Positions 591-61,830 are shown, counted from the stretch's first letter. The stretch: 64,000 nt of DNA from Bacillota bacterium (GCA_030024085.1 JASEJE010000017.1:1-64000), one strand, 5' to 3'. A program made the numbers and translations. Notes: generated from the letters alone by a model not told the origin.

Positions 591-1413
591 AGGTTTTCCC
601 TCCCGTCAAACCTGTCGGCCAATGACCCAGAGAACGCCACGGAGAGATACCGGTAAGGGTCCTCGTTAGCGGGTCTCATGCGTGGCGGTCTCCGGGTAAG
701 CGCTGCTTACCCTGACCTCACGGCGGGACTGTTACGGCAAATTCGATTTCCGCCAATGACGTACCTGACTTCAGGCTGTAGATGCGCATGCTTTCAACCT
801 ATACGTGGGAGTTCCACGACGGAGTTCCACGACCGAGCGTGCTCGTCCTTCAGGGAAATACACAGTCTTTCCTGTACGTATGGATAGTCTTTGCTGTACG
901 ACCGCCCTCCGAGACGTCAGGGTCCTGTGAACGACGTAAACGGCCTAGTATTGGGACCTGAGGATACCAAGGAGCCCTGCCCGAGTGGCATTTTGGCCAT
1001 CTTTGGAGGCCTAGGTCGTTAGCTGCAGTAATTGGATGATTGGAAGGCGATCTTGCAGCGGGAAACCCCGTACGGGAGCAAAGGCAGCAAGGCGACGGTA
1101 GGGTGGCGGAGGAGTCCTGAGAGTTCCGGAGAACAACCACAGCAGTGATTGTACCGGCACCTGCGGCGGCCAGGTACGGCCTGTTCCTGCACTGCCTTGG
1201 CAATCTCCTGGTCAAACTCGGAGCGGGAAGCGCCTTTCGGGGAACGAACGATCCGGGTCGTGGCCGTAAGCAAACGACACCCTCACTCAGTGAATGAGGC
1301 AAACAGGAAAGGGTCCCTTGCGCTGGCGTCGAATGTGACGGTGAGCGCAATCCTGAGTAATGGGCCTACCACGTCCAACGGCGATGAAGGTGTCTCCAGA
1401 GAAGGATGGTTCT
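591..1413. other. Stretch without a convincing gene
   Basis: I see no intact gene. On the minus strand around 1090-1290, two overlapping frames look like a broken small protein: a helical piece containing SEFDQEIAKAVQEQ and, in another frame, a hydrophobic piece YLAAAGAGTITAVVVL. This suggests a frameshifted gene, but I cannot name it. The last ~105 bases (from about 1308) are nearly identical to the leader of the second LspA-like gene at 20519-20626, so the duplication includes upstream DNA. Confidence 0.35.
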
Positions 1414-2118
1414 ATGCTTGCGATGTGGACATTCCTCAAGCCGACGAAGCTCAAGATGCTGTTCCTCGTGGAGTGGGTTGTCTACGTGCTGATCGAGCTG
1501 TCGCGGGCAAAGCTGAGGACGGCGCACCAGTTGATGGTGGCTGCCTACCCTCTCATAGTGTTCTACCTGATCGGCTGCGCACTGGCAGCGGCAGCGCTGG
1601 TCCGAACACCGACACGGTTGCCGCGCTGGCGGCACCTTCTGGGACTGGCCGTGCTGCTGGTTGCTCTGGAGCAGCTTGTCAAGGCGGTGATCAGTGCGGT
1701 CGTTCCTTACCGCGGGTCGGTCCCGATCGTCCCGGGCTGGCTGCACCTTGCTCATGCGCGAAACATGCGTGGATCCTGGCTGGTAAGGGAGTTCGGCATT
1801 GGTTTCATGAGTATCGGCGCGCTGATAGCGATGTGGGCAATCGCGCTGCCCTGTTTCGTGCTGGGTTTCCGCAACTACGCTGCGAGAAAACGCAGGAGTC
1901 TGTGGCTGGACGTGGCCTTCGTGACCATCGTTGCAGGAATCGGCGGCGCGCTCTGTGACCTCGCCCTGCGCGGGTACATACTGGATTTCATCAACCTGCC
2001 CGGTGTTGTAACCGCGGACCTCAAGGACATCTTCACTTATGTCGGCCTCGCAGCCCTGTTTGCCGAGCTTGTGGATAACCCGGGGATATCCTTGACGTGG
2101 CAAGGGTGGCGCAGATAA
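1414..2118 (+). CDS. LspA-like (signal peptidase II family) membrane protein, copy 1, C-terminally truncated
   Basis: A 234-residue polytopic membrane protein. The C-terminal part follows the lipoprotein signal peptidase plan: EQLVK (LspA has DQ.tK), then VPIVPGWLHLAHARN, then GGALCDLALRGYILDF and ADLKDIFTYVG. The two aspartates matching the LspA catalytic pair (in LDF and KDIF) are present, while the usual GN and FN.AD asparagines are replaced. Two extra membrane segments precede this core. The start is the ATG after AGAAGGA at 1401-1406; an upstream in-frame ATG at 1360 is less likely. Compared with the copy at 20627-21421, a GAA to TAA change ends the protein 30 residues early, after the core. 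Function as an active peptidase is unproven. Confidence 0.6.
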   Translation: MLAMWTFLKPTKLKMLFLVEWVVYVLIELSRAKLRTAHQLMVAAYPLIVFYLIGCALAAAALVRTPTRLPRWRHLLGLAVLLVALEQLVKAVISAVVPYRGSVPIVPGWLHLAHARNMRGSWLVREFGIGFMSIGALIAMWAIALPCFVLGFRNYAARKRRSLWLDVAFVTIVAGIGGALCDLALRGYILDFINLPGVVTADLKDIFTYVGLAALFAELVDNPGISLTWQGWRR

Positions 2119-4834: not shown

Positions 4835-5173
4835 TCAATGACCCTGGGTGCCTCTATCGGCGAACAGGCTGCAGGCCAGGTGTGCGAGCAGGGAGGTGAT
4901 CCCGCTGCTCGAGAGGCCGAGCCTCGCACTGGCTCGTTCAATCCTGCGCCGCACGGCGCTTGTCGATATTCCGAGTTCCGAGGCGATCTCCTTGAGAAGG
5001 TGACCTTCGAGCCTGAGGCGCAGAACTTCCCATTCTCGCACCGTAAGCATCGAGCTCAGCACCTCGTCAGTGCGGTAGCCTCTTCGAAGTGAGTTCGGCG
5101 GGTCGTACTCCCGCGTCTGTCCTGACCGGGATTCCTCAGATGGTCCGCGTTTGCGTGGTGAGCGGATAGCCAT
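4835..5173 (-). CDS. LuxR-type HTH regulator, copy 2 (intact)
   Basis: A 112-residue protein starting at ATG with GGGAGGG seven bases upstream. Residues 43-100 form a GerE/LuxR DNA-binding domain: LTVREWEVLRLRLEG, LKEIASELGISTSAVRRRI. The first 40 residues are polar and disordered-looking (RSPRKRGPSEE), with no receiver, PAS or autoinducer domain. It is therefore a stand-alone HTH protein that may need a partner for signal input. The paralog at 252-590 has a stop codon in the N-terminal part, which makes this the likely working copy. Confidence 0.8.
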   Translation of the reverse strand: MAIRSPRKRGPSEESRSGQTREYDPPNSLRRGYRTDEVLSSMLTVREWEVLRLRLEGHLLKEIASELGISTSAVRRRIERASARLGLSSSGITSLLAHLACSLFADRGTQGH

Positions 5174-5270
5174 AGGTTGTCCCTCCCGTCAAATAGGTAA
5201 ACAGCACTTACCGGGATCCCACGCCGGACCGCGTCTTGCGGCAACGCTGCTACCTGCCGGTCGCAGATCC

Positions 5271-7059: not shown

Positions 7060-7092
7060 TATATTCGCCGGAGACCCTCGAAATGTTCGCGC
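7060..7092 (-). promoter_or_regulatory. Conserved 33-bp element, copy 1
   Basis: It shares the pattern ATAT.T..CCGGAGACC followed by C.A.ATGTTC with copies at 7148-7180 and 17055-17087. All three lie upstream of minus-strand genes, in the same orientation relative to them. Read on the minus strand it has GAACAT, a 16-base spacer and AATATA, a promoter-like layout. The rest of 6906-7669 contains no gene I can support, only low-complexity DNA at 7435-7500. Confidence 0.4.
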
Positions 7093-7147
7093 AGCTCTTC
7101 CAAGAGGCCCGAGGTCGTGTAGACGAGCCGCTGTTCACGCTCACCCA

Positions 7148-7180
7148 CATATTTACCGGAGACCCACGAGATGTTCGCAC
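7148..7180 (-). promoter_or_regulatory. Conserved 33-bp element, copy 2
   Basis: This second copy lies 88 bases from copy 1 and keeps CCGGAGACC and ATGTTCGC. It is about 240 bases upstream of the Yip1/signal-peptidase-like gene and about 500 bases upstream of the divergent ECF sigma factor. Confidence 0.4.
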
Positions 7181-7669
7181 GATCTCTTGAGCCTTTGGGG
7201 TGGATTTCTTTGCTTGTGTCTCCCGCCGTCCGCGGACAGACGTCTCCACGAAGCAGATTGCACGACGCGCCTCACGGCGGTGTGGCAGGTAAGAGGAAAT
7301 CGGCTGGAACCCTCGAATATCGTGGAGTAAGCAAGTAGCCCAGTAAGCCATCGTGACCCGACGCGTCGGGGCTTCGAGCCAACATAACCGCACTTCGCTG
7401 CAGCAAACCCTGCCTTCCAGTCTCTCCAGTTGATGGTGCCCTGTCCCTGCCCCTGTTGGTGTCCCTGTCGGTCTCGGTGTTCCTGTCCCCATCCACGTTG
7501 TTGGTTTCAGGTCTACCCTTTCGCAGCAGAGCCATCGCCAGAGCCATCGCCGCACCACTGCACTAGGTCTTGGCAGCACCTCGACGCGCTCAAGAAAACT
7601 TCCCGAATGGGCCGATTCCCTGCGAACATTTTCGGCCTGTGCGGCGAATTATGTATGGGAGGCACCAGG

Positions 7670-8352: not shown

Positions 8353-8952
8353 TTGGGAGGCTCCCGAATTCGAAACCGGAAAACGGCGGATGGCAGCGGA
8401 CAGGGCGGCCGTGCGAAGAGCAGTCGCCCTCTGAGCACAGGCTTGTACAGCACTCGCCCCCCGCAGGCACTTCATTGGAGAGTCAAACGCATGCTGGAGC
8501 TCTACGTGGCAGGCGCGCTCGGCCCCGAAGAGGGACATCTCGTTGAGAGGCACGTTGCCGAATGCGCCGCATGTGCTCGCGACCTGCGCGAGATCTCTGC
8601 AGTCGCAGGACTGCTGAGAACACTGCCCTTTGCTGAGCCTTCAATGACCTCGAAGCAGATGACCGCAAACGTACTTGCGCGCGTTCGTGCAACCTCTCAA
8701 CGTGAAAGCCCCAATACGTTGGAGGTCCGATGGTGGGCGCCGCTTGCGCTGCAGACTGCCGGGTTCCTGGTGAGCCTCGCTTTGGTGAGCTCAACATCTC
8801 GCTTTCCTGGCTACGTCTCGCGCCTGGGCATTCATATGCTTGTGGGCCAGGTGGTGATCATGTCTCTCTCTGGCCTGTTGCTTGCTGTTCTGTGGATTCT
8901 AGTCACCGGGATTCGCAGGCTCTACAGAAGGCGGGCTTTCGGCCATGGGTGA
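8353..8952 (+). CDS. Membrane-anchored anti-sigma factor with a zf-HC2-like motif
   Basis: The start is TTG at 8353, eight bases behind GGAGG; this removes the overlap with the sigma gene and gives 199 residues. Residues about 40-85 carry the HxxxCxxC zinc-binding signature of anti-sigma factors (HVAECAAC). Two membrane helices follow: WWAPLALQTAGFLVSLAL and the VVIMSLSGLLLAVLWILV stretch. It should hold the ECF sigma factor at the membrane until released. Its last eight bases overlap the next gene, which points to translational coupling. Confidence 0.8.
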   Translation: MGGSRIRNRKTADGSGQGGRAKSSRPLSTGLYSTRPPQALHWRVKRMLELYVAGALGPEEGHLVERHVAECAACARDLREISAVAGLLRTLPFAEPSMTSKQMTANVLARVRATSQRESPNTLEVRWWAPLALQTAGFLVSLALVSSTSRFPGYVSRLGIHMLVGQVVIMSLSGLLLAVLWILVTGIRRLYRRRAFGHG

Positions 8953-9733
8953 TGCCGGGTGGTCACGCGGCGTCGAGGCTGCCTCGTGCGGTCCGGCCGT
9001 GCAAAGTAGGCTCGTCACGCGGCTGGTAGCTGCCAAGCGCTTGATTGCCATAGTGGGGCTGCTGTGCTTTCTCGAGGTAACGGGGTTTGCCCTGTTTTTC
9101 GAGACCATCATGAGACAATTGCCCATTCCTTCAGCGAATCTTTGCGCGTATCGTGTCGCGGCGCTTCTTCGCCGCGGGGCGGACCCGGATGACATCAACA
9201 GAGAGATCTCGAGCTGGCGCAAGATCTGCCCTGACATCCTGGCTGTGGTGGTGGCGGATCTTCGTGGGGAGGTGATGTTCTCGTCCGAGCCAGGCGTGGT
9301 AGGGTCGAAGATTCCGCAGCCGCACCTTGCAGATGCTGGTAAACTCAAGGACTGGCTGATGGACAACGCCAGGGGTATTGCTATCAAGAAGGACGCAGTG
9401 TATCAGTTTGCTTACCAAGACACGGCGTTGACAGACGGCAGTGCAGCAAGAGTGTGGGCCATTGCCACATTCCGAATGTACAACAACATACCAGCCTATG
9501 TGATGTGGACTGTGGCCCGGCCCAACGGCCGATATATGCTCTGGACGATCATCTGGTGGCTCTCCGTTCCGACGTGGATTTACATCGACCAAGTGCTGAC
9601 AACACGTGGCAAATCGACGGGTGCCACGAGGTGGGCCGTCGTTGGTTTTGCCTTTAACGGCATCGGACTGTTGCTGTATGTGGCAGCAAGCCGAGTATTC
9701 TCTGCAAAGCGCGGTACATGCCAAATGAACTGA
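8945..9733 (+). CDS. Membrane protein with an extracytoplasmic domain, third gene of the sigma operon
   Basis: A 262-residue protein starting at the ATG within ATGGGTGA, overlapping the anti-sigma stop. One membrane helix lies at about residues 33-53 (LIAIVGLLCFLEVTGFALFF) and two near the C-terminus (WTIIWWLSVPTWIYI; AVVGFAFNGIGLLLYVAAS). Residues about 55-195 form an external domain resembling the small sensor domains of membrane receptors (DILAVVVADLRGEVMFSS). I know no family for it. From its position I infer a sensor or regulator acting with the anti-sigma factor. Confidence 0.6.
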   Translation: MGDAGWSRGVEAASCGPAVQSRLVTRLVAAKRLIAIVGLLCFLEVTGFALFFETIMRQLPIPSANLCAYRVAALLRRGADPDDINREISSWRKICPDILAVVVADLRGEVMFSSEPGVVGSKIPQPHLADAGKLKDWLMDNARGIAIKKDAVYQFAYQDTALTDGSAARVWAIATFRMYNNIPAYVMWTVARPNGRYMLWTIIWWLSVPTWIYIDQVLTTRGKSTGATRWAVVGFAFNGIGLLLYVAASRVFSAKRGTCQMN

Positions 9734-9847: not shown

Positions 9848-10054
9848 TTTGTCCCAACCTATGCTTCGGGTTGTGTGACAGTAAGGTCAATCCAGCGAGT
9901 CGATGAGGTCGGGCATGCTTACAGGAAGAATGACGGTCTCTTCGCGGACATCGTCGGTTTCCTGTAGCAACGGCGTGGCAAAGAGTATGACCCGCTCGGC
10001 GTGCCAACGACGCATACGATCCTGCCTCATGGCGGTGCTGCCGTGAGTACCGGG

Positions 10055-10858
10055 CTAGTACTCGGCGAGGCTGCCGTCGATCCTGGCCCTGTTGAACCCC
10101 CATCGGAACACCACTAGCCCGATTGGAAGGGTCAATGCGGTGAGGGCGAGCAGGGCCAGGACCTGGCTTCTCACCTCTCCAAGCCCGGCATGAACCATGA
10201 TGGTCTTTCGCAGCGCAATGAGTGCATGGGTGGGAGGTAAGGCCACGGCGACAGTCCGCAGGAACGGAGGTAAAAGCTCAACTGGGAACATGGCCCCGCT
10301 CAGGAGACCGGAAAGCGTGCCGAAGGCCCAGGTGATCGGGTCCCCCTGCTTCGTAACCATGATGATGCCGGCAGACATCAGCCCAAACCCAGACATGCAG
10401 ACGACAGAGAGAAGCAAGATGAACAGCGCGGCGCCGAGGTTCACGTTGATGTCCATGCCGAGGACGAACACGACCACGAGGAAGATGACCGACGTGCTCA
10501 GGCACGCGTACACGAAGTTCCAGAGCGCTGAATAGATCAGAATCTGGTGCAGCGGGGTATCCGACATGAGGAGGAACTCCAGCGTGCCCATCTGCTGTTC
10601 TCCTCGAATCGCGCCCTGGAACGAGTTCAAGGACACCCCCACGAAGCTCATGAACGTCGTGCCGATTATGAGGTATCCCATGAGGTTACCGCCGTAGGGT
10701 GCGAGAAGAGGGAACTCGTGCCCTTCCCCGAGGAACTTCGCCATGAAGTAAAACTGCGCTGCGCCGACAAACGTGCCAAGGAGTGTGAGCACGAAGGCCA
10801 TTCGGTAGCTCAGCATGCTGACAAAGCCACGCTTTACGAAGACGTATGCCTTATACAC
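10055..10858 (-). CDS. ABC-2 type exporter permease
   Basis: A 267-residue protein with about six membrane helices in the ABC-2 layout: an N-terminal amphipathic start (MYKAYVFVKRGFVSML), a long cytosolic stretch with GEQQMGTLEFLLMSDTP (the conserved ABC-2 motif before the central helices), and SGAMFPVELLPPFLR in the C-terminal half. It pairs with the ATPase encoded immediately upstream, whose stop overlaps this start by eight bases. The pair probably exports a lipid, drug or peptide; the substrate is not evident. Confidence 0.85.
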   Translation of the reverse strand: MYKAYVFVKRGFVSMLSYRMAFVLTLLGTFVGAAQFYFMAKFLGEGHEFPLLAPYGGNLMGYLIIGTTFMSFVGVSLNSFQGAIRGEQQMGTLEFLLMSDTPLHQILIYSALWNFVYACLSTSVIFLVVVFVLGMDINVNLGAALFILLLSVVCMSGFGLMSAGIIMVTKQGDPITWAFGTLSGLLSGAMFPVELLPPFLRTVAVALPPTHALIALRKTIMVHAGLGEVRSQVLALLALTALTLPIGLVVFRWGFNRARIDGSLAEY

Positions 10859-11825
10859 GGCTCGTTTCGCCCCCTGTGAGCGTCAGAAAGATGTCTTCGA
10901 GGGAAGGCTCGCACGTGGCGATGGACTCAACCTCGACCCCGTGCTCTACCATCAGCCGCACGACTTCATTTGTCACGGACTCCTTCTGCGTCATGATGAC
11001 TTCGAGCGCCGGGTTCCCTTCGGCTACGGCTGCAACTCCGGCTATTGACCTGAGCGCTCCGATGAACCTGGCAGGGTCTTTCCCCCAGTTTCGAACGGCC
11101 AGCTGCAACCGGCATTGGTGCAGAATGCCCCTCAGGTTGGCCGGGGTGTCCACAGCGATGAGACGGCCTTTATTGAGTATGCCGATCCTGTCTGAAATCC
11201 GTTCGGCCTCATCCATGTTGTGAGTGGTGAGCAGAATCGTGCGCCCTCTGGCCTTCAGTTCCTTGATATGCTCGCGGATGTGCCTTGCGGAAGCCGGGTC
11301 CACCGAAGCGGTGGGTTCGTCTAGCAGCAAGACGGGCGGGTCGGTGAGAAGAGCCCGGGCGATCCCGAGCTTTCTCCGCATTCCGGACGAATACTTCATG
11401 AACCTCTTATCGGCTTCTTCCCCGAGGCCAAGCTGGTCGAGGACCTCGGAAATTCGTCGGTGGAGAAGCGGCGGCCTGAGTCCCTGGAGCGCTCCGAAGA
11501 ACTCCAGGTTCTGGCGGCCCGTGAGCCGGAAGTAGAACGACCTCTCGCCTCCTGGGCTGAACCCGATCGATGCCCTGACCCTGCTGGATTGTGTCAGGAT
11601 ATCGTACCCGTTTACTGTCGCCATGCCGGATGTCGGCACAATGAGGGTAGAGAGGATCTTCACGAGCGTTGTCTTCCCGGCCCCGTTCGGCCCGAGCAAG
11701 GCGAAGACTTCGCCTCTGTCGATTTCCAGGCAAACCCGGTCGACGGCAGTGACAGGGCTGCCCCGGCCATCCCTCGCCCGTGGGTAAGTCTTCGTCAGAT
11801 CGTGGACACGTATCAATGATATCAT
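10851..11825 (-). CDS. ABC exporter ATP-binding protein
   Basis: About 324 residues. Walker A is GPNGAGKTT, the Q-loop region is IGFSPGGERSFYFRLTG, the signature is YSSGMRRKLGIARALL (SSGM variant), Walker B is VLLLDEPTASVD, and the H-loop is LLTTHNMDEAE. A C-terminal extension of ~90 residues is typical of DrrA-like exporter ATPases. ATG at 11825 is the first start, but the TTG at 11816 is better spaced from AAAGGGA. It forms an overlapping two-gene operon with the permease. A 22-base palindrome just upstream is a likely operator. Confidence 0.88.
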   Translation of the reverse strand: MISLIRVHDLTKTYPRARDGRGSPVTAVDRVCLEIDRGEVFALLGPNGAGKTTLVKILSTLIVPTSGMATVNGYDILTQSSRVRASIGFSPGGERSFYFRLTGRQNLEFFGALQGLRPPLLHRRISEVLDQLGLGEEADKRFMKYSSGMRRKLGIARALLTDPPVLLLDEPTASVDPASARHIREHIKELKARGRTILLTTHNMDEAERISDRIGILNKGRLIAVDTPANLRGILHQCRLQLAVRNWGKDPARFIGALRSIAGVAAVAEGNPALEVIMTQKESVTNEVVRLMVEHGVEVESIATCEPSLEDIFLTLTGGETSRV

Positions 11826-11834
11826 TCCCTTTGG

Positions 11835-11856
11835 ACTGTGTGTCTGCCTACACAGT
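11835..11856. promoter_or_regulatory. 22-bp palindrome upstream of the ABC exporter operon
   Basis: ACTGTGT, an eight-base spacer and ACACAGT form a perfect inverted repeat, ten bases before the ATPase start. Position and symmetry fit a dimeric repressor site, for example of a GntR/YtrA-type regulator. The regulator is not identified. The adjoining 11857-12147 contains no gene I can support. Confidence 0.45.
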
Positions 11857-12147
11857 ACGACGTGACGCGGTGTGAGGGAGTCTACGCTCCAGCACAATCG
11901 AAGTAACCCCAGGGGGCATCGACCGTAGTGCACCTCGTTCTCATTTCCCAATCCGCAGCTAGGTAGGGCAAAGAGACCGTGCGTAGAACCGTATCCTCTT
12001 CGGCTGGAAACTCCCATGGTGCCTACTCCAGGCCACGCGGTGGCGCAAACGACAAAGCCATGCAACTGACTCGCCTCCTGCGGCAGCACGCTCGTCAATC
12101 CTGGTCTCCTTCTTGCTATACAAAGTTGAGGACGCCAGCAGAAGCAA

Positions 12148-12480
12148 CTACCCCCACCTCGTTGGGACATGGATCGATAAGTGAGGGTGCAGGACACCGT
12201 TGAACTTCCCCAGCAACTGCCAGTTTCCCCGAGCAAGGCGACGAGTTTGCGCCATTCGACCAGGCTGCGCCACCATAATATAGAAGGAATCAACGGCCTC
12301 ACGTACCCTCACTTGGTCCTGTTCGCAGATTTCAAACACGGCACGGCGTATCTCCTCATCACATTCGGGAAGCCTCCTGATGCGGCGCGACAACTCCTCG
12401 CGAATCAGGATTCGCCTTGGTAGTACCGGATCTATGTCAGCTGCGAGGGATCGCAGTCTCTCCTGAAATGCTGGATCGAT
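12148..12480 (-). pseudogene. Helical protein remnant without a normal start
   Basis: An open frame of 110 codons follows directly after a TAG and has no ATG or GTG in its first part; the first possible start is TTG at 12393. The first ~65 residues look truly coding: RSLAADIDPVLPRR, then RRIRRLPECDEEIRRAV and EICEQDQVRVREAVDS, a strongly helical, charged pattern. After IMVAQPG the character changes, suggesting a frameshift. I do not recognise the family. It may be the 3' part of a gene truncated upstream. Confidence 0.35.
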
Positions 12481-12634
12481 CTACATACCGTATCAAGTCT
12501 CGCCTCTGTGTGCCTCACAACCGTTGCTTTACCCCAGCGGGACGTCCTGGGGGTGCTGACTTCGTTGATTAACATATCGCCTTGCCCACAGAAACAACCC
12601 CAGCCACATGGCTACACCCATGAGCCCAGCCCAC

Positions 12635-13267
12635 CTACCTTCCACCGCTTGCTGCGCAATGAATTGCCGTCGACAGGCAGGTGGACCTCATCCATGTGGC
12701 GGTCAGCCCCAGGAGTATTGCGGTTGTATACACTCTTCCTAGGATTTCTGCTCCGGGTTGATGGGTATGGGCCACTGCAAAAAGGAAACTCGAGATGGCA
12801 ACAGCCCACAGAGACGGTCTACGACTACGGGCGAACAGTCTGTTCAATTCGCCAATCAAAAAGCCCCGAAAGAATGCTTCCTCCGAAGCACGGGCATACG
12901 CTTCGAAAAGACAAGTGCAGAGTGAGCAATCATATGCGGGAATGACTAGCACGAAGGCTGTTGACAGAGCCAACACAAGAGGCACGAGGCGGGTTGAACC
13001 GATCCCATATTCGGCAGGGCTTCTCCCCGCTGTGCGAGCAACGACAACAGTGGGGACCCACAAGAGCGGGTAGATAGATAAGCTCACAACGCTCAATCCT
13101 GTCGGGTGGTCCGAGACGCTGTGACCCATAGACAGTCGATTTAGCACAGCGCAGAGCAAGGTCACAACCAGGGCGTACAGAAGGCTCGCGCGGAGCACCC
13201 TGTCCTTGACAAATGTATCGTGTGCATTCGCCACGTCCAGAATAGCCGAGCTGAACAACGGTTCCAC
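12635..13267 (-). CDS. CPBP-family intramembrane metalloprotease
   Basis: From the GTG at 13267, behind GGGAGGA, the protein has 210 residues with about six membrane helices. The CPBP (CAAX protease/Abi) motifs are visible: SEEAFFRGF (EExxxR), FAVAHTHQ (the second histidine motif) and a C-terminal TAIHCA in place of the usual H.xxN. Such proteins cleave within membranes or confer immunity to bacteriocins. The C-terminus is short after IHC, so the final motif may be damaged. A fragment of a second copy lies in opposite orientation at 15148-15262. Confidence 0.75.
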   Translation of the reverse strand: MEPLFSSAILDVANAHDTFVKDRVLRASLLYALVVTLLCAVLNRLSMGHSVSDHPTGLSVVSLSIYPLLWVPTVVVARTAGRSPAEYGIGSTRLVPLVLALSTAFVLVIPAYDCSLCTCLFEAYARASEEAFFRGFLIGELNRLFARSRRPSLWAVAISSFLFAVAHTHQPGAEILGRVYTTAILLGLTATWMRSTCLSTAIHCAASGGR

Positions 13268-13611: not shown

Positions 13612-14829
13612 TCACGCTGCCTGCTCCAGGGTGACTTTGTATCCGAGTGCCTCGAGTCGCTTGATTGCGCGACGAGCTACCGCGTCATGATTCAGCTTGT
13701 CGAAGTAGTCCGCCCCCAGGTCCTGGTATGCCGTGCCTTCCTTGAGCATGTGGTAGATGATCACGAGTATCGTATGAGCAACTGCTACCGCTGCTCGGTT
13801 GCCTCCGCGACGAGCTGCAAGGCGATGGTACTGGGCTGACAGGTAAGTGTTCTTCGTACGGGCGGCAGAGCGTGCCGCTTCCACCAAAGTCGTGGGTAGA
13901 TGGGGGTTGCCTGGACGCGTGCGACCACTCTTGCGTTTGCCAGCGCTCTCATTGTTCCCCGGACATAGCCCAGCCCATGAGGCAAGGTGCGCGGCGCTTG
14001 GGAATCGGCTCATATCATCTCCGGTCTCGGCCAATACCTCTTCAGCCGTCTGTCGCCCGACGCCTGGGATGCTGTCGAGGGCCTCGACCGCTTTCTCAAA
14101 AGGGCGCATCCGCTCCTCGATCTCCCGGTCAAGCTTCTTGATCTGACCGTCAAGGAAACGGACGTGCTCGATCTGCGCAGCCAGCATCATCCTCTGATGA
14201 GGCCCGATCAGCCCCTCCATGGCTTTGGTAAGCTGGCCAGCCTTCTTCTTGAGCTTGCCCCTGGCAAGTTGCGCAAGGGTCTCGGGATCCGTCTCAGCGG
14301 CTACCAAAGCCTCCAGTATGGCCTGGCCCGACTTACCCATCACGTCGGTTGCAACATCCCCAAGCTTAATATTGGCCCCCTCCAGTACCTTTTGGATACG
14401 GTTGACCTCACGAGCCCGCTCCCGGATAAGGTCCTTGCGGTACCGCACCAGTTCCCTCAGTTCCCGCTGCGGCCGGTCAGGAATGAAGCTTCCCCACAAC
14501 AGCCCATGCCGCAGGAGATCACAGATCTACTCTGCGTCCTTCATGTCCGTCTTCCGCCCCGGCACTGCCTTGATATCCCGGGCATTGACAACCAGAACTT
14601 CAATTCCCGTTCCCTCGAGAATGTTATAGATGGGTTTCCAGTACACACCCGTGCTCTCCATTGCCACGTGCGTGCACCTCTTGGACACGAGATAATCAGC
14701 CAGCTCCAGCAAATCGCTGGTCATCGTGCCGAAGGTCTTGGTTTCCTTCCCCTCCGGAGTTGTGACACATGCAACCACGACCTTCTTGTGAACATTAAGC
14801 GCACCGCAACGTTCGTACAGTACCTCCAT
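13612..14829 (-). pseudogene. IS110-family transposase, broken by a TAG codon
   Basis: Reading through one TAG (after MKDAE, where relatives have tryptophan) gives a 405-residue DEDD transposase. The N-terminal RuvC-like domain shows LNVHKK, VAMESTGVYW and GRKTDMKDAE. The C-terminal transposase_20 domain shows SIPGVGRQTAEEVLAETGD and NNESAGKRKSGRTRPGN. The first catalytic aspartate, normally in the IDVHK-type motif, is asparagine here. Two independent lesions therefore argue for an inactive element. The ATG at 14829 has only a weak ribosome site. Without readthrough it would give proteins of 100 and 295 residues. Confidence 0.85.
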
Positions 14830-15738: not shown

Positions 15739-16084
15739 AGATAACGCCTCCTCCGAATGCCGGCACGAAGGGAGTGCCACCTATAGGCATGCAGGGTCTA
15801 GTCAGAACCGAAAAGCTGGAGGAAAAGGTTACAACAAACCGGCGCCGCAAACAGACTTATCACGGAGTTCAGCAATCCGGGAAGCAAAAGAGCGCGCCCA
15901 ATGTCACCGTGCATCTTGCAGTTTGGGCACCTCAAAGGGCAGCCGAGTTCACTCAGGCAGCCTACTCATGAAAGGATCCACTTGATGATCACCTTGATCA
16001 ACCACGGAGCATCGCGTTCACTGAGCTCCTCAGTAGCGGTGAGGAGTTCCTCGTACACGCAAACGCCCGCCACACGGGCACTGC

Positions 16085-16630
16085 GCGAAGCCAGCTGCAG
16101 AAGATGAGTTATATCTATCCCAGTCCCTCGTCAGGAAGCGAATCCCTAGCTTGTCGGATTTTTCGTAAACAACCGTCCCTGGAAACGGGGTAAGGATCCC
16201 GAAGGGCGTAATTACTCTCTTGCCCATTTTTCTCCCTATGGTACGGAGGTTCCTTGCATACTTGATAGTCTCCTCAATCGTCTCAACGGTATCATCCGGC
16301 AGACCTATAATGAACGAACACACTACATCAAGGCCCGCGGAACATGCATCTGAAACAACCTGCTCAACAGCTTCGAGGTCATATCCCTTACCGATTTTTC
16401 TCATTATGAACGGGACACCCGTTTCTACGCCGAAGTGAATCAACCTGCAACCGGCCTCCCTCATCAGTCGAAGCAGATCTCTGTCCACCGTGTCAACTCG
16501 TGATTCACATGACCACTCGAAGGTTAACGGTTCGTCCAGGATAAGCTTGCACAGGCGGACGACTCTAGAAGCATCGGTAGTCAAGGAGTCGTCGGAAAAG
16601 ATGACTGTCCGCGACGCGGGATCGGCCGCC
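16085..16630 (-). pseudogene. Radical SAM enzyme fragment (B12-binding-type), truncated at both ends
   Basis: The open frame encodes the C-terminal two thirds of a radical SAM barrel of the cobalamin-binding type: RTVIFSDDSLTTDASRVV, FEWSCESRVDTVDRDLL, REAGCRLIHFGVETG, FIIGLPDDTVETIEETI and LTPFPGTVVYEK. The CxxxCxxC cluster motif and any cobalamin domain, which should precede this part, are missing; the frame upstream runs into the end of the LuxR gene. Similarity stops after RDWDRYNS. It cannot bind its iron-sulfur cluster and is a relic. Confidence 0.7.
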
Positions 16631-16640
16631 CTGTCTCCGG

Positions 16641-16654
16641 TCAGACTAGTCTGA
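16641..16654. promoter_or_regulatory. Perfect 14-bp palindrome at the luxR end
   Basis: TCAGACTAGTCTGA is a perfect palindrome overlapping the stop codon of the LuxR gene at the join with the truncated radical SAM gene. It may be a protein-binding site or a junction scar; nothing more can be said. Confidence 0.25.
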
Positions 16655-16990
16655 TAGAAACCTCTCGGCTACTCGGTCGAATCCAAGTTCTTTACACAAG
16701 AGCAGGAGACATGCTCTGTTGCGGACACCCGTTTTACGATAGATGTTCCCCAGGTGGAATCTGATGCAGGACTTGCTCACCCACAACAAGCGAGCAGCTT
16801 CAGAGGTTGTGCGTCCGGGGTCGCCGATGAGAGCCGCAAGCACTCGCAGCTCACCGGCGGTCAACCGTGCAACGAGGTCGACCCAGTCAACCATATCGCT
16901 GCCCCTCTCCACACGCCCGGGCACACGCGCCACCGGCTGTTGAGCCGATGCAGGAAGGTCAGGACGGTAGTCACCAAGACTTAACGACAT
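16646..16990 (-). CDS. LuxR-type HTH regulator
   Basis: A 114-residue protein starting at ATG with GGAGGGAGG at good distance. The C-terminal ~65 residues are a LuxR/GerE domain (LTAGELRVLAALIG, TTSEAARLLWVSKSCIRFHL, NIYRKTGVRNR). The first 40 residues have no recognisable sensor domain. It is divergent from the candidate RiPP locus, about 160 bases from the Gly-rich peptide, so it is a candidate regulator of that locus. It is different from the luxR copies at 252 and 4835. Confidence 0.8.
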   Translation of the reverse strand: MSLSLGDYRPDLPASAQQPVARVPGRVERGSDMVDWVDLVARLTAGELRVLAALIGDPGRTTSEAARLLWVSKSCIRFHLGNIYRKTGVRNRACLLLLCKELGFDRVAERFLSD

Positions 16991-17054
16991 GATGGTTTCC
17001 TCCCTCCGGGAAGGCTTGGATCCCGGGTCTATAGACGAGTGTCAACTTCCCACC

Positions 17055-17087
17055 CATATATTTGCCGGAGACCTCCAAAATGTTCAC
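17055..17087 (-). promoter_or_regulatory. Conserved 33-bp element, copy 3
   Basis: It shares ATATTTGCCGGAGACC and ATGTTC with 7060-7092 and 7148-7180. It lies 65 bases upstream of the LuxR gene at 16646-16990, in the promoter position, and within 100 bases of the Gly-rich peptide. Confidence 0.4.
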
Positions 17088-17149
17088 GGAGATCGGCCAA
17101 GACATACCCGGAATCTGAGGCCGGTGGCAGTCATATAACGCAGTCGGTA

Positions 17150-17230
17150 ATGGAGACACGAATTCCCATATCGCTCAGCGGCGCCTGTGCGGGAGGGGGT
17201 GGACATGGCGGCGGGGTGAGCAAACACTAG
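17150..17230 (+). CDS. Candidate RiPP precursor peptide
   Basis: A 26-residue peptide starting with METRIPISLSG, followed by a core with one cysteine, four glycines, histidine and three more glycines (ACAGGGGHGGG), and ending VSKH. Gly-rich cores of this kind are substrates of radical SAM/SPASM peptide maturases. The only such enzyme in the window lies 509 bases downstream on the same strand. The ribosome site is weak (GGT before ATG), and the frame is also open upstream to 17039. Function is an inference from composition and neighbourhood. Confidence 0.4.
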   Translation: METRIPISLSGACAGGGGHGGGVSKH

Positions 17231-17738
17231 TAAGGGATACAGTGAAGTCTATGCATCCCTCCAGCAGGAAACGCCTGTACTGTGACGAACGTGACCACGC
17301 CAAGAAAGACGATTGCCTGCTTGTCGAGTGTGGCGAAGACCGACAGGTAGGGACGGTGGTAGAGTTGGTTTCCCGGGAAGGGATTCCAGCACATTAAGTT
17401 CTCGTCGAGCCGTCCGGGTGCTTAGTCTGGGTTTGTCTCCAGAGGTTCTGCGGCGACTACTGGTGCTTCATTTACATTGGCAACTGAAGACCTGGAACGG
17501 CGGCGATTGGGTAGATATCCTGGTATCACGTGACTCGTCGGGATGCTTGTTCGGATCGAGGGGAACCAGTAGAGCGAGTGTTGGATGGCAGGGGGGCAAT
17601 CCGACATCCGGATGTCAATGCTGCTGGGCCCGAGGGGTGCCAAATAGGGGAGGATGTGACCGGTTGCGGTTGTCGCTGACGGACCAGCTTTACCACCACC
17701 GCCTGTCGACCATTAAGCCGATATGGGAGGCGCGAGTA
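17231..17738. other. Leader region between the Gly-rich peptide and the radical SAM gene
   Basis: No gene with a good start is seen. In one frame, ending just before 17690, lies a Cys-rich tail (GPEGCQIGEDVTGCGCR) preceded by about 40 open codons but without a ribosome site; it is a weak second precursor candidate. The stretch at 17318-17343 resembles 20484-20509 (GTGTGGCGAAGACC in common), so this leader also contains duplicated DNA. Confidence 0.3.
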
Positions 17739-19109
17739 ATGATCCTTTCGTCAGAGACGGTGCTTTATCCCCCAAGAGAAGTTCATTGGCGTGAGGTTGA
17801 TAAGACCACGTGGGTTGCAGTAGCTCCCGAGATCCCGCAGTGGGTGTACGTGGACACGGCGGGGAAAGCTGTGATAGAAGCGTGCGACGGCAATAGTACG
17901 GTTCAAGAGATCGTGCGCTCAGTCTGTGCCCGATTCGCCGCCGACCCAGCTCAATCAACCGAGCATGTCTTATCATTCCTTGGTGAGCTCACCGAAAAGG
18001 GTTTTCTTAGGACTGATGCTCCCGGCATATGTGCCCGGGACCCTAGCATAGAGAGGCCGCCGGTTGACCGCCTCAATCAGCTATGGCTGCACCTCACGCA
18101 CTCCTGTAATCTCCGTTGCGTCCACTGTTTTCGAGACGCTGGGCACGTTACTGACGAACTAACCGTAGGGGAGTGGAAGAGGGCTCTCGATAGCTATTCA
18201 CGTTTGAAAGGCAAATCGGTCATCATATCCGGCGGGGAGCCCCTCCTGCGCCGCGACATCCTAACGATACTTGGCATGTGTGAAGATCTCGACCTTCAGG
18301 TCGGCGTGATTACCAACGGTACACTCCTGACACACGAGTTATGTAAGGAGCTTAGTAGAACGAGAAAGGTTTCCGTGCAGATTAGTTTAGATGGCGCTAC
18401 ACGGGCTACAGTAGACAAGATAAGAGGTGATGGCGTATTCGATAGCGTCATCAGAAACTATCGCGAACTACGCTCCGGCGGATTTGGAGGTTCTATTTCG
18501 TTTTCCATGACCATCATGAAACCCACCCTTCACGAGATTGAGGCCTTCGCCGAGCTAGCTGCTGCAGAACGTGTTGATGCAGTTCACTATCCGTTCTTTA
18601 CAGCATCAGGACGGGGCTACCGGAATCGGGAGTCGTTAGACCTGTCTGACGCTGAGAGGCAGGAGGCTATAGACCGGCTAGCCAGGGTGATGGCTCGAGC
18701 CAGCTTGCTCGGAGTAAGATTCAGTCGCGATTGCACCGCACTACTGAACCTCAGTGCCCGGCGTCATGATTACTGCGCGGCAGGTGTGTATGCATGGAGC
18801 ATAGAACCTAACGGGGACGTGACACCGTGTGCCGGACTCACGGATCAACAGCACATAGCAGGGAATATCCGGTCGCAGGCACTTGAAGAGATAGTGACCG
18901 ACTCCCGGATCGCTAGACAGTTCCGTTCTTACGGGATGCAGGATGCAGAGTGTAGCAACTGTGAAGTCAGATTCCTTTGTGCCGGAGGATGTCACATTGG
19001 AGTCCAAAGGAGGGAGGGAGGGCGTTGGCATCCGTTGGTATCCCAAAGGCGCGACCCAATTGGTGGGCGATGGTTTCCGCAGCACTCATATTCGCTTTGC
19101 CATTGCTAG
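17739..19109 (+). CDS. Radical SAM/SPASM peptide maturase with a PqqD-like N-terminal domain
   Basis: The protein has 456 residues and starts at ATG nine bases behind GGGAGG. Residues about 10-95 form a PqqD-like peptide-recognition domain (VYVDTAGKAVIEACDG, TVQEIV). The radical SAM core starts at about residue 120 with CNLRCVHC, continues with SGGEPLLR and VGVITNGTLL. The SPASM domain near the C-terminus has CAAGVYAWSIEPNGDVTPC and CSNCEVRFLCAGGC, ligands for two auxiliary clusters. Such enzymes install thioether or other crosslinks in ribosomal peptides. The last ~30 residues after GGCHIG overlap the start of the next gene. The likely substrate is the Gly-rich peptide at 17150. Confidence 0.85.
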   Translation: MILSSETVLYPPREVHWREVDKTTWVAVAPEIPQWVYVDTAGKAVIEACDGNSTVQEIVRSVCARFAADPAQSTEHVLSFLGELTEKGFLRTDAPGICARDPSIERPPVDRLNQLWLHLTHSCNLRCVHCFRDAGHVTDELTVGEWKRALDSYSRLKGKSVIISGGEPLLRRDILTILGMCEDLDLQVGVITNGTLLTHELCKELSRTRKVSVQISLDGATRATVDKIRGDGVFDSVIRNYRELRSGGFGGSISFSMTIMKPTLHEIEAFAELAAAERVDAVHYPFFTASGRGYRNRESLDLSDAERQEAIDRLARVMARASLLGVRFSRDCTALLNLSARRHDYCAAGVYAWSIEPNGDVTPCAGLTDQQHIAGNIRSQALEEIVTDSRIARQFRSYGMQDAECSNCEVRFLCAGGCHIGVQRREGGRWHPLVSQRRDPIGGRWFPQHSYSLCHC

Positions 19110-20293
19110 TGATCCCATCCTGGGGTGTAGAGGGAGCCGAACAGCACTCATCGGTGGAGAGTCACACCGAGCCTTCCGCCGGGGCCAGGATAAGGATTGA
19201 TCCTGACATGACCGTCATCTCGCCAGAGGCGGTAGAGCATCTTGGGATCGTCATGAGCGATGTCGCCGCGCGTGTCAACCAACTTTTCGGCGTCAGTCCT
19301 GAAGCCATAGGAGAGGTTGTAGTAACTGTGGCGCGTGGGGAACCTTTCCTCGAGGGGGCGTTGGGAGGCTCACGCAGTGGTATTCTTATTTGTGCCAACT
19401 TCGGCAGTCTTGAAACGTCGGATATCTTGCGACCTTTGATGCGGTCCTGGCTTGCTCTTGAATATACCCGCGTCGTCTTGGAAAGGACATCTGGTGGCGG
19501 CCAGCTGGGTCTTGCCGGCAGCCTCTACATGGGCATTGGAGTGGCCGTTGCCGACATTGTGTTCCCGGACTGTGCCGAGTTCCCACTTCGGGATCCTCAT
19601 AAAGTGAGCGCAGGCCTACTGCTACTAGATAAGCTACACGTTCCGAGATCGACTGATCCAGCGATTTATAACGGCACTGTCGGGGGCTCGTTCTGCAAGT
19701 ACCTCATCGAGCGCTTTGGGCCGCGCAAGATCCTTGAAGTCTACTCGGAACTGAAATCGGGAGAAACCATGAATGAGGCCCTAATGCACGTGTACGGTGA
19801 GCAACTCAGTCTTGTGGAGGAGGGCTGGCGCTCTCTCCTTAGAAACGTTGCCGGGGAAGACCCCGAAAGGTTCGCTGCTATGGCAGAGATGATGCTCCAT
19901 CTCGATGAGCTATCGAGCACCTCGATGAAAGCCCTGTATTCTGCCGAACAGATAGGAGTCGGAATTCCTCGGCGAATAGAGGATCTCGCGCAGTCGGTAC
20001 GCACAGGATTAATGGAGATGTATGAGGCGGGCGCCGGGACCGATTCCATTGTGCATGTCCGCGAACTCGTAAGCCAGTACGCTTCGGCCGTGCAGTCCTG
20101 GCACGATGCTGTGAATTTGCTATGGCTCGACGTGAGCATTCCGCTCGCTACCGGGTCCTCCGATTATGAGAGCATACTAGACGCGGCTGAGCAGGCAAGG
20201 GAGCTTGCAGCACAGTTGGGCGCTGACGATCTTGTGAGAAAGGCGGAGGAGAGCATAACTATGCTCAAGCGCACGAGACAGCCGAGTGAATGA
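19025..20293 (+). CDS. Exported peptidase-MA-like protein with a degenerate active site
   Basis: The TTG start at 19025 follows GGAGGGAGGGAGG and lies inside the end of the maturase gene, implying coupled translation. The N-terminus has a signal peptide (WWAMVSAALIFALPLLVIPSWG). The body follows gluzincin peptidases of the MA_2 type, with GGSFCKYLIERFGPRKI and VYGEQLSLVEEGWRSLL near the expected end of that domain. The zinc motif HExxH is replaced by LALEYTRV, and the downstream glutamate helix reads LYMGIGVAVAD. I infer a secreted, non-catalytic relative. The C-terminal ~130 residues are helical and unknown. Context links it to the RiPP locus. Confidence 0.55.
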   Translation: MASVGIPKARPNWWAMVSAALIFALPLLVIPSWGVEGAEQHSSVESHTEPSAGARIRIDPDMTVISPEAVEHLGIVMSDVAARVNQLFGVSPEAIGEVVVTVARGEPFLEGALGGSRSGILICANFGSLETSDILRPLMRSWLALEYTRVVLERTSGGGQLGLAGSLYMGIGVAVADIVFPDCAEFPLRDPHKVSAGLLLLDKLHVPRSTDPAIYNGTVGGSFCKYLIERFGPRKILEVYSELKSGETMNEALMHVYGEQLSLVEEGWRSLLRNVAGEDPERFAAMAEMMLHLDELSSTSMKALYSAEQIGVGIPRRIEDLAQSVRTGLMEMYEAGAGTDSIVHVRELVSQYASAVQSWHDAVNLLWLDVSIPLATGSSDYESILDAAEQARELAAQLGADDLVRKAEESITMLKRTRQPSE

Positions 20294-20626
20294 GTAATTC
20301 GAGAGGTTAAGCGAGGACATGTGTAACTCAACCATGGGCCGTTCAGTATTCCGCTAAGTTCTCCATGGCGGCCTGCGGCTGCCACCATCGAGCGGAAAGG
20401 GTCTTGTTCGCCTGCGAGTCGGAGATATGGCTCCCGTTGAGGAGATGCTGTCGGGGGATTACGGCGTCAGAAGGTTCGACGACCGCCTGCTCGTCGGGTG
20501 TGGCGAAGACCACAAAGTGGAAAGGGTCCCTGGCGCTGGTGTCGAATGTGACGGTGAGCGCAATCCTGAGTAATGGGCCTACCACGTCCAACGGCGATGA
20601 AGGTGTTTCCAGAGAAGGATGGTTCT
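20294..20626. other. Leader of the LspA-like gene, assembled from duplicated pieces
   Basis: A minus-strand open frame (20343-20591) exists but has no ribosome site or recognisable domain. Bases 20519-20626 repeat 1308-1413 upstream of the other LspA-like gene; bases 20484-20509 resemble 17318-17343. No promoter is clear. Confidence 0.4.
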
Positions 20627-21421
20627 ATGCTTGCGATGTGGACATTCCTCAAGCCGACGAAGCTCAAGATGCTGTTCCTCGTGGAGTGGGTTGTCTACGT
20701 GCTGATCGAGCTGTCGCGGGCAAAGCTGAGGACGGCGCACCAGTTGATGGTGGCTGCCTACCCTCTCATAGTGTTCTACCTGATCGGCTGCGCACTGGCA
20801 GCGGCAGCGCTGGTCCGAACACCAACACGGTTGCCGCGCTGGCGGCACCTTCTGGGACTGGCCGTGCTGCTGGTTGCTCTGGAACAGCTTGTCAAGGCGG
20901 CGATCAGCGCATTCATTCCATACCGGGCGTCGGTCCCGATCATCCCGGGCTGGCTGCACCTTGCCCACGCGCGAAACATGCGTGGGTCCTGGCTGGCCAG
21001 GGAGTTCGGCATTGGTTTCTTGGGTATCGGCCCGCTGATAGCGATGTCGGCAATCGTGCTGCCCTGTTTCGTGCTGGGTTTTCGCTACTACGCTGTGAGA
21101 AAACGCAGGAGTCTGTGGGTGGACGTGGCCTTCGTGACCATCGTTGCCGGAGTCGGCGGGGCGCTCTGCGACCTCGCCCTGCACGGGTACATACTGGACT
21201 TCATCAACCTGCCCGGTGTTATGACCGCAGACCTCAAGGACATCTTCATTTACGTTGGCCTTGCAGCTCTGTTCGCCGAGCTTGTGGATGACCCGGCGAT
21301 ATCCATGACGTGGCTAGGGTGGCGGAGAGAACTCGAGCGCACGCGCCGTTTCATCAGAAACTTCGCAGCGTTCTCAGCCCGGGAGGTCCGGAAGGTCGCC
21401 AGGATGTTGACAGGGGGCTGA
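20627..21421 (+). CDS. LspA-like (signal peptidase II family) membrane protein, copy 2
   Basis: The protein has 264 residues and starts at ATG behind AGAAGGA. Two N-terminal helices (FLVEWVVYVLIEL, YPLIVFYLIGCALAAAAL) precede an LspA-like core: EQLVK, VPIIPGWLHLAHARN, AIVLPCFVLGF and GGALCDLALHGYILDF followed by ADLKDIFIYVG. The aspartates equivalent to the LspA pair are conserved; the first D (DQ) is E, and the N residues of GN and FN.AD are D. The C-terminal tail, RRELERTRRFIRNFAAF, is a cytosolic amphipathic helix missing in copy 1. The combination suggests a specialised LspA relative, possibly with an altered substrate. It follows the candidate RiPP locus. Confidence 0.65.
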   Translation: MLAMWTFLKPTKLKMLFLVEWVVYVLIELSRAKLRTAHQLMVAAYPLIVFYLIGCALAAAALVRTPTRLPRWRHLLGLAVLLVALEQLVKAAISAFIPYRASVPIIPGWLHLAHARNMRGSWLAREFGIGFLGIGPLIAMSAIVLPCFVLGFRYYAVRKRRSLWVDVAFVTIVAGVGGALCDLALHGYILDFINLPGVMTADLKDIFIYVGLAALFAELVDDPAISMTWLGWRRELERTRRFIRNFAAFSAREVRKVARMLTGG

Positions 21422-31955: not shown

Positions 31956-32193
31956 GGGCTGCCGGCGGTTGCACGAGGGGTGTCAAGATTCGGCCACTGG
32001 CCCGGCGGGCCGGATTTTGGCGAAGCGCGCCCCGCTTGGGGCGCCGTCCCCGAGCGCAACACCGGGAACCCGCCAGATGTTGGCAAGCTGGGAGGAACTG
32101 ACGAACTCTCATTTGGAGGCCGACTGGCAGGAATGCTCAAGGATTCCCCTTACACATTGGGGTGCAGGGGCCTGGGCCGTGGGTACGTTATCG

Positions 32194-44631: not shown

Positions 44632-44795
44632 TGTATTAGTCCTTTGCATCGTGCTGCGTCTGAGCGTTGTGTTGCGCCCCACTATTCGCGGCCCAGCTAC
44701 TCTAGGTAGATCGCCACAAGTTCGCGCTACTTTTCAGCGGGTGAGTCCTGTCCAGGGTTGCCGGTGTTGCCCTCCGGGGACGGCGCGCTTGCGGC

Positions 44796-44916
44796 GCGCC
44801 TCGTTCGAATTTGGCGCGCAGGCTAGCCAAATTCTCGACGCCCCGTCGTGCAAGCACCGGCAACCCCAACACCGTCAGGGAAGATGGCGGAAACTTATGG
44901 CGCCATACTTAGAGAT
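44796..44916. repeat. 121-bp dispersed repeat, copy 1
   Basis: It is about 80 percent identical to 61709-61830. Shared landmarks are GCGCCTCGTTCGAA, an inverted repeat (GAATTTGGC...GCCAAATTC), TTCTCGACGCCCCG, GGCAACCCCAACACC and GGCGCCATACT. This copy lies between convergent-free bioY and the GNAT gene, and its last bases form the final codons of the GNAT gene. Confidence 0.75.
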
Positions 44917-61708: not shown

Positions 61709-61830
61709 CGCGCCTCGTTCGAACTTGGCGCGTAGGCTGGCCGAATTCTCGACGCCCCGCCCCAGCAAGCATCGGCAACCCCAACACCATCAGGAGAAAA
61801 GGCGCAAGCTCGTGGCGCCATACTCAGATA
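61709..61830. repeat. 121-bp dispersed repeat, copy 2
   Basis: It shares GCGCCTCGTTCGAA, TTCTCGACGCCCCG, CGGCAACCCCAACACC and GGCGCCATACT with 44796-44916. It stands between the truncated FrhB-like gene and the truncated MFS gene, so it marks a deletion or recombination junction. Confidence 0.75.

Follow-up and report, generated by a model that had tools for sequence, protein, structure and literature searches.

We favour, with modest confidence, the view that the locus described here is a rearranged and partly decayed RiPP island, the core of which is an orphaned pair formed by the radical SAM maturase P0001 and the exported pseudo-peptidase P0002, with the precursor missing or located elsewhere and with a short Gly-rich ORF and an LspA-like gene as neighbours. 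The locus lies in a stretch of 64,000 nucleotides (the window), which is contig C8 of a 65-contig, 3.1 Mb assembly (G000). The sequence-only reading had proposed a four-gene RiPP locus made of peptide ORF, maturase, exported protein and LspA-like gene. All four are present where they had been placed; that they form one conserved unit was not confirmed: remnants of an ABC locus flank P0001 and P0002, the LspA-like gene is duplicated and the Gly-rich ORF lacks an SD sequence. The features of the island are as follows.

16030–16584, minus strand: HpnJ/ApyD-like radical SAM gene of the B12 type, truncated by loss of its N-terminal half
16646–16990, minus strand: LuxR/GerE-type regulator of 114 aa (Pfam GerE, 4.2e-6), core of a repeated module
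16600–17385: repeated module of regulator, upstream region and Gly-rich ORF (~90% DNA identity, five loci)
17150–17230, plus strand: Gly-rich ORF of 26 codons, METRIPISLSGACAGGGGHGGGVSKH then stop, the proposed precursor
17308–17538, plus strand: remnants of a C25-type ABC locus (3' end of the ATPase gene, permease-ATPase spacer)
17739–19109, plus strand: P0001, PqqD-radical SAM-SPASM peptide maturase, 456 aa
19025–20293, plus strand: P0002, Peptidase_MA-like pseudo-gluzincin, Sec-exported, that has lost its zinc site
20391–20512, plus strand: second remnant of a C25-type ABC ATPase gene (91.5% match to L054 8453–8582)
20573–21421, plus strand: P0003, LspA-like (Peptidase_A8) membrane protein, with ATG 20627 as likely start

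The first of the two ABC remnants matches, at 79–90%, positions 8540–8621 and 7436–7573 of L054, the locus on contig C25 of the same genome. As remnants of this type stand on both flanks, the block 17539–20390 carrying P0001 and P0002 lies between scars, and the LspA-like gene joins the locus at 20513. These scars, together with the LspA-like copies and the module copies found elsewhere without P0001, mark the four-gene order as specific to the window contig. Transposase-like ORFs (IS110-like by eye) occupy two frames at 13612–14829, adjoining the island, and the same stretch precedes the corresponding locus of genome G003. Elsewhere in the window, an 81.5% repeat links 262–610 to 4845–5193, the second copy reading on the minus strand as a LuxR-type regulator (ORF 4835–5173), and dispersed repeats roughly 80–90% alike occur at 31956–32071, 44702–44914 and 61709–61828; the latter are also found in the C25, C5, G003, G004 and G001 loci and look like genus-wide interspersed repeats.

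P0001, which follows the SD sequence GGGAGG, has the anatomy previously ascribed to it, as Pfam matches and Cys positions agree on a PqqD-like domain (PF05402, 8.5e-11, residues 25–90), a Radical_SAM domain (PF04055, 1.1e-23) with CNLRCVHC at residues 123–130, and a complete SPASM domain (3.8e-10) with all seven of its Cys (346, 364, 405, 408, 414, 418 and 454/456), the last of which falls within the segment overlapping the gene for P0002. The N-terminal PqqD-like domain, the CxxxCxxC core and the seven-Cys SPASM domain are shared with sactipeptide maturases of the StsB, AlbA and ThnB types; unlike these, P0001 scores far below the equivalog cut-offs (135 versus 625 bits for StsB, 69 versus 850 for AlbA), is coupled to an exported pseudo-peptidase and comes with no precursor that we could find. 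Its best NCBIfam match, extending over radical SAM and SPASM domains, is the mycofactocin maturase MftC (TIGR03962; 147 bits, cut-off 265 not reached), from which it differs by the fused PqqD-like domain and by having no mycofactocin-type precursor beside it. P0001 thus belongs to none of the NCBIfam equivalogs. In a sample of 398 genomes from the phylum there was no full-length ortholog, the matches otherwise being generic radical SAM proteins of 31–35% identity, and the closest sequence was a pseudogene scrap of about 94 codons (85% identical) in the congener G002, on its contig C66. Viral contigs contained no close relative, nor did GTDB contigs, where the only match (23%) came from a Bacteriovoracaceae MAG. 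P0001 is intact and, in the searched genomes, unique. Since no precursor was found, its assignment to RiPP maturation follows from domain architecture.

The exported protein P0002 overlaps the 3' end of the maturase gene, consistent with the translational coupling from an internal TTG that had been noticed before. Translation most likely begins at TTG 19025, which follows AAAGGAGGGAGGGAGGG, and not at the outermost TTG, 18977; the orthologous DNA of G001 begins at window position 19013. The C-terminal part matches the end of Peptidase_MA_2 (PF13485) at 31.5 bits, close to the cut-off of 32.4, and the paralog on contig C5 of the same genome (32.2 bits) and the G001 ortholog also fall just below the threshold. 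An AF2 model had low confidence (pLDDT 66) and yielded no Foldseek match. The absence of HExxH, likewise remarked upon earlier, is borne out by alignment, in which LEYTR occupies the HExxH position. The family as collected here has four members, namely P0002, the G001 ortholog (89%), the C5 paralog (55%) and a relative (33–35%) in G160, a distant genus from a different family of the same phylum. Aligned with six HExxH homologs, every one of the four carries LE[Y][TS]R instead of HExxH and lacks the second-helix Glu, the downstream zinc ligand. By its C-terminal match to Peptidase_MA_2 the family is of probable gluzincin descent, with both zinc-binding elements lost. P0002 is under purifying selection, with a dN/dS of 0.36 against G001 and 0.26 against C5, and this, together with the missing HExxH in all members, identifies a conserved zinc-less family rather than a single decayed gene.

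The suggestion that the degenerate peptidase is tied to a radical SAM maturase gained ground from two further family members. On C5, the radical SAM remnant GSVVIVSGGEPLLYDKILEILDFCRGL, a GGEP region 59% identical to P0001 over 27 residues, is found some 460 nt before the P0002 paralog, in the same orientation, and scores 72 versus 23.7 ± 3.8 for shuffles (~13 standard deviations). On contig C76 of G160, a SPASM fragment similar to the second SPASM protein of C25 sits just downstream, running over the end of the P0002 relative, and scores 90 versus 26.6 ± 4.9 (also ~13 standard deviations); ABC-2 genes follow the P0002 relative there. In G001 the ortholog is intact and stands alone, without a maturase upstream, so that the window holds the only intact maturase-P0002 link, the C5 and G160 instances being remnants. 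Because two more members adjoin radical SAM or SPASM remnants, the pairing is real, and maturase and pseudo-peptidase probably form a functional pair.

P0003 is a genuine LspA-like membrane protein gene (Peptidase_A8, PF01252, 1.2e-15 over positions 1–139 of 142), as had been claimed; its place as a dedicated member of the locus has to be given up, as the gene exists in several copies and those elsewhere have their linkage without this maturase. The window itself contains a second copy (93.6% DNA identity between 20513–21388 and 1300–2175), and at least five further LspA-like copies were found in all (this one, at window 1360–2118, and those on G003 contigs C34 and C75 and G004 contigs C45 and C85), of which the one on G003:C34 directly follows the Gly-rich ORF. 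A manual alignment had implied loss of a catalytic Asp, a notion dismissed by phmmer, whose alignment pairs Asp200 with the catalytic Asp in S. aureus LspA; Asp220, invariant in six copies, would be the second catalytic Asp by position and invariance. With two predicted catalytic Asp, integral membrane character and Peptidase_A8, P0003 can be classed as a putative LspA. It shares Peptidase_A8 and Asp200 with lipoprotein signal peptidase, but is divergent (21.8 bits to 6ryo), carries a long N-terminal extension and, unlike LspA, is multicopy.

The Gly-rich, Cys-containing ORF exists as described; by a criterion picked after the fact, no other ATG ORF of 20–40 codons in the window combines a Cys with a Gly content of 30% or more. 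It belongs to a module of about 0.75 kb, consisting of the divergent LuxR/GerE-type regulator and the ORF, which recurs at about 90% DNA identity on G000:C25, G001:C53, G003:C34 and G004:C45, with regulator copies 88–92% identical. The ORF is present in all five copies, reading MGTPIPISLS[SG]VCTGG[GA]RHGGGV[SG]KH in the others, whereas a P0001-type maturase occurs in none of the four other loci, three of which carry radical SAM genes of other families. An SD sequence is lacking in every copy in which the start was inspected, unlike the regulator (strong, GGAGGGAGGAAACC), P0001, P0002 and both C25 precursors. A longer peptide of 63–67 aa from GTG 17039, in frame in all copies, is less favoured, since it too lacks an SD and begins within a DNA motif that other regulators also have upstream; this motif, near ATATTTGCCGGAGACC..C..AATGTTCGC, recurs before LuxR-type regulators at window 7060–7190 and L057 6777–6845, resembles 17040–17120 and is a possible shared operator. 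No other precursor with a convincing SD was found in 17231–17738 or between P0002 and the LspA-like gene, and a 51-codon ORF at 17242 runs into the ABC-gene remnant. Hence no conserved precursor gene was identified beside P0001 at the window locus.

The locus on C25 (L054 5700–12760) is a probable sactipeptide cluster sharing the regulator module. It comprises an ABC-2 transporter, a CcpM/RumMC-like maturase (9894–11411), a second SPASM radical SAM protein (11399–12760) and Cys-rich HuaA-like precursors at 8966–9133 and 9417–9599, behind the SD sequences ACAGGAGGTG and AGAGGAGGG, the second scoring 34.4 bits against the huazacin family, just under the cut-off of 35. Since these SD-bearing peptides are present, the clear precursor of C25 is not the Gly-rich ORF. 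In these precursors and this maturase C25 resembles the thuricin Z/huazacin and ruminococcin C sactipeptide clusters, unlike the window locus, where precursors of this kind are absent and the maturase is of another type. The G004 and G003 loci carry Clo7bot-like maturases (345 bits, cut-off 600), and the G001 contig C53 stops before any maturase, its sequence matching G004 along this stretch. A second small ORF after the regulator, with KAGSCVGA.THA..TVPDL conserved (L056 9418–9609; L054 5495–5644, minus strand) and no NCBIfam match, is a candidate precursor for the G004 Clo7bot-like maturase. In G003, an S41-type peptidase (L057 7472–8986, minus strand) lies beside the Clo7bot-like maturase and the regulator, much as a C-terminal protease is reported from a thuricin-CD-like cluster (PMC3132745).

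What, then, is the Gly-rich ORF? That it encodes the P0001 precursor, with all four genes forming one RiPP operon, would agree with its position next to P0001 on the same strand, its unusual composition and its preservation in five loci, with a radical SAM gene nearby in at least four. We nevertheless regard this as highly doubtful, because the ORF travels with the regulator gene and not with P0001: it is kept in four loci lacking P0001, so that the expectation that peptide and maturase be conserved together fails when taken from the side of the peptide (the searched genomes hold no intact maturase ortholog), and C25 offers better precursors. Moreover, no copy has an SD although the regulator, P0001, P0002 and the C25 precursors do, the 508-nt gap from its stop to the maturase ATG 17739 contains ABC-gene remnants, and the changes in the window lineage are mostly nonsynonymous (synonymous to nonsynonymous 2:8, 1:6 and 4:9 against the other copies). 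The ORF is thus probably not a substrate of P0001, judging from its distribution. It could instead be a real gene tied to the regulator, either a signal peptide or a precursor common to swapped maturase cassettes, that has become relaxed in the window. Its frame is intact in the five copies despite indels of 9 and 12 nt immediately before it, the comparisons among non-window copies lean towards synonymous changes (2:1, 5:2 and 3:3; here as in the window comparisons the counts are too small to decide) and dN/dS is 0.11 between C25 and G003. Still, this is unlikely, as the numbers are small (eight independent changes by our reading), an SD is lacking, and the ORF, with 15 of 81 sites variable, matches the variability of the DNA before it (29/159) and of the regulator gene (54/339), and is less conserved than the DNA just downstream (9/80).

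Other alternatives concern P0001 itself. It seems quite improbable that the enzyme modifies a protein, for instance P0002 or some other exported one, or produces a small cofactor in the manner of MftC and PqqE: the best NCBIfam matches, MftC and NirJ2 along with heme-type SPASM enzymes, and the want of a credible SD-bearing precursor ORF adjoining P0001 would fit such an activity, but a PqqD fusion is a leader-binding hallmark, the sactipeptide maturase StsB ranks third among the matches and RiPP-type radical SAM genes abound in the surroundings. That the entire stretch is a graveyard of dead RiPP genes, with the P0001 frame still open by chance, is distinctly unlikely. The radical SAM fragment at 16030–16584, the ABC remnants, the P0001 scrap in G002 and the P0002 genes that stand without a maturase in G001 and on C5 would all be expected of decay; an open frame of 456 codons with all cofactor Cys and a good SD, and purifying selection on P0002 in two comparisons, would not.

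Returning to the orphaned pair as the preferred explanation, the PqqD domain of P0001 would hold a leader peptide while the enzyme installs a radical-made crosslink, the modified product would be exported, and P0002, outside the membrane, might bind, but not cut, product or leader in an immunity or carrier role. The precursor belonging to the pair was probably lost or lies elsewhere. The Gly-rich ORF would be part of the adjacent regulator module, with the LspA-like gene as a multicopy neighbour, neither being specific to the pair. Loss of the radical SAM gene with retention of P0002 is the pattern expected of an immunity, capture or scavenging gene, and suggests such a role.

It is a long shot that the locus stands for a new RiPP class, in which a PqqD-radical SAM-SPASM maturase is obligately coupled to a dead exported gluzincin capturing the finished peptide, and in which interchangeable maturase cassettes share a regulator-linked Gly-rich peptide within one genus. 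A limited literature search found no description of exported peptidases that lack a zinc site and go with radical SAM maturases. The locus also serves as a warning that what looks like a precursor, a short Gly-rich ORF next to a maturase, can instead belong to a duplicated regulator module, and it portrays a genus that reshuffles RiPP cassettes around a common regulator. Zinc-less exported peptidases paired with radical SAM enzymes of this kind would constitute a class of RiPP partner protein, one that is easy to miss because family models score its members just below threshold.
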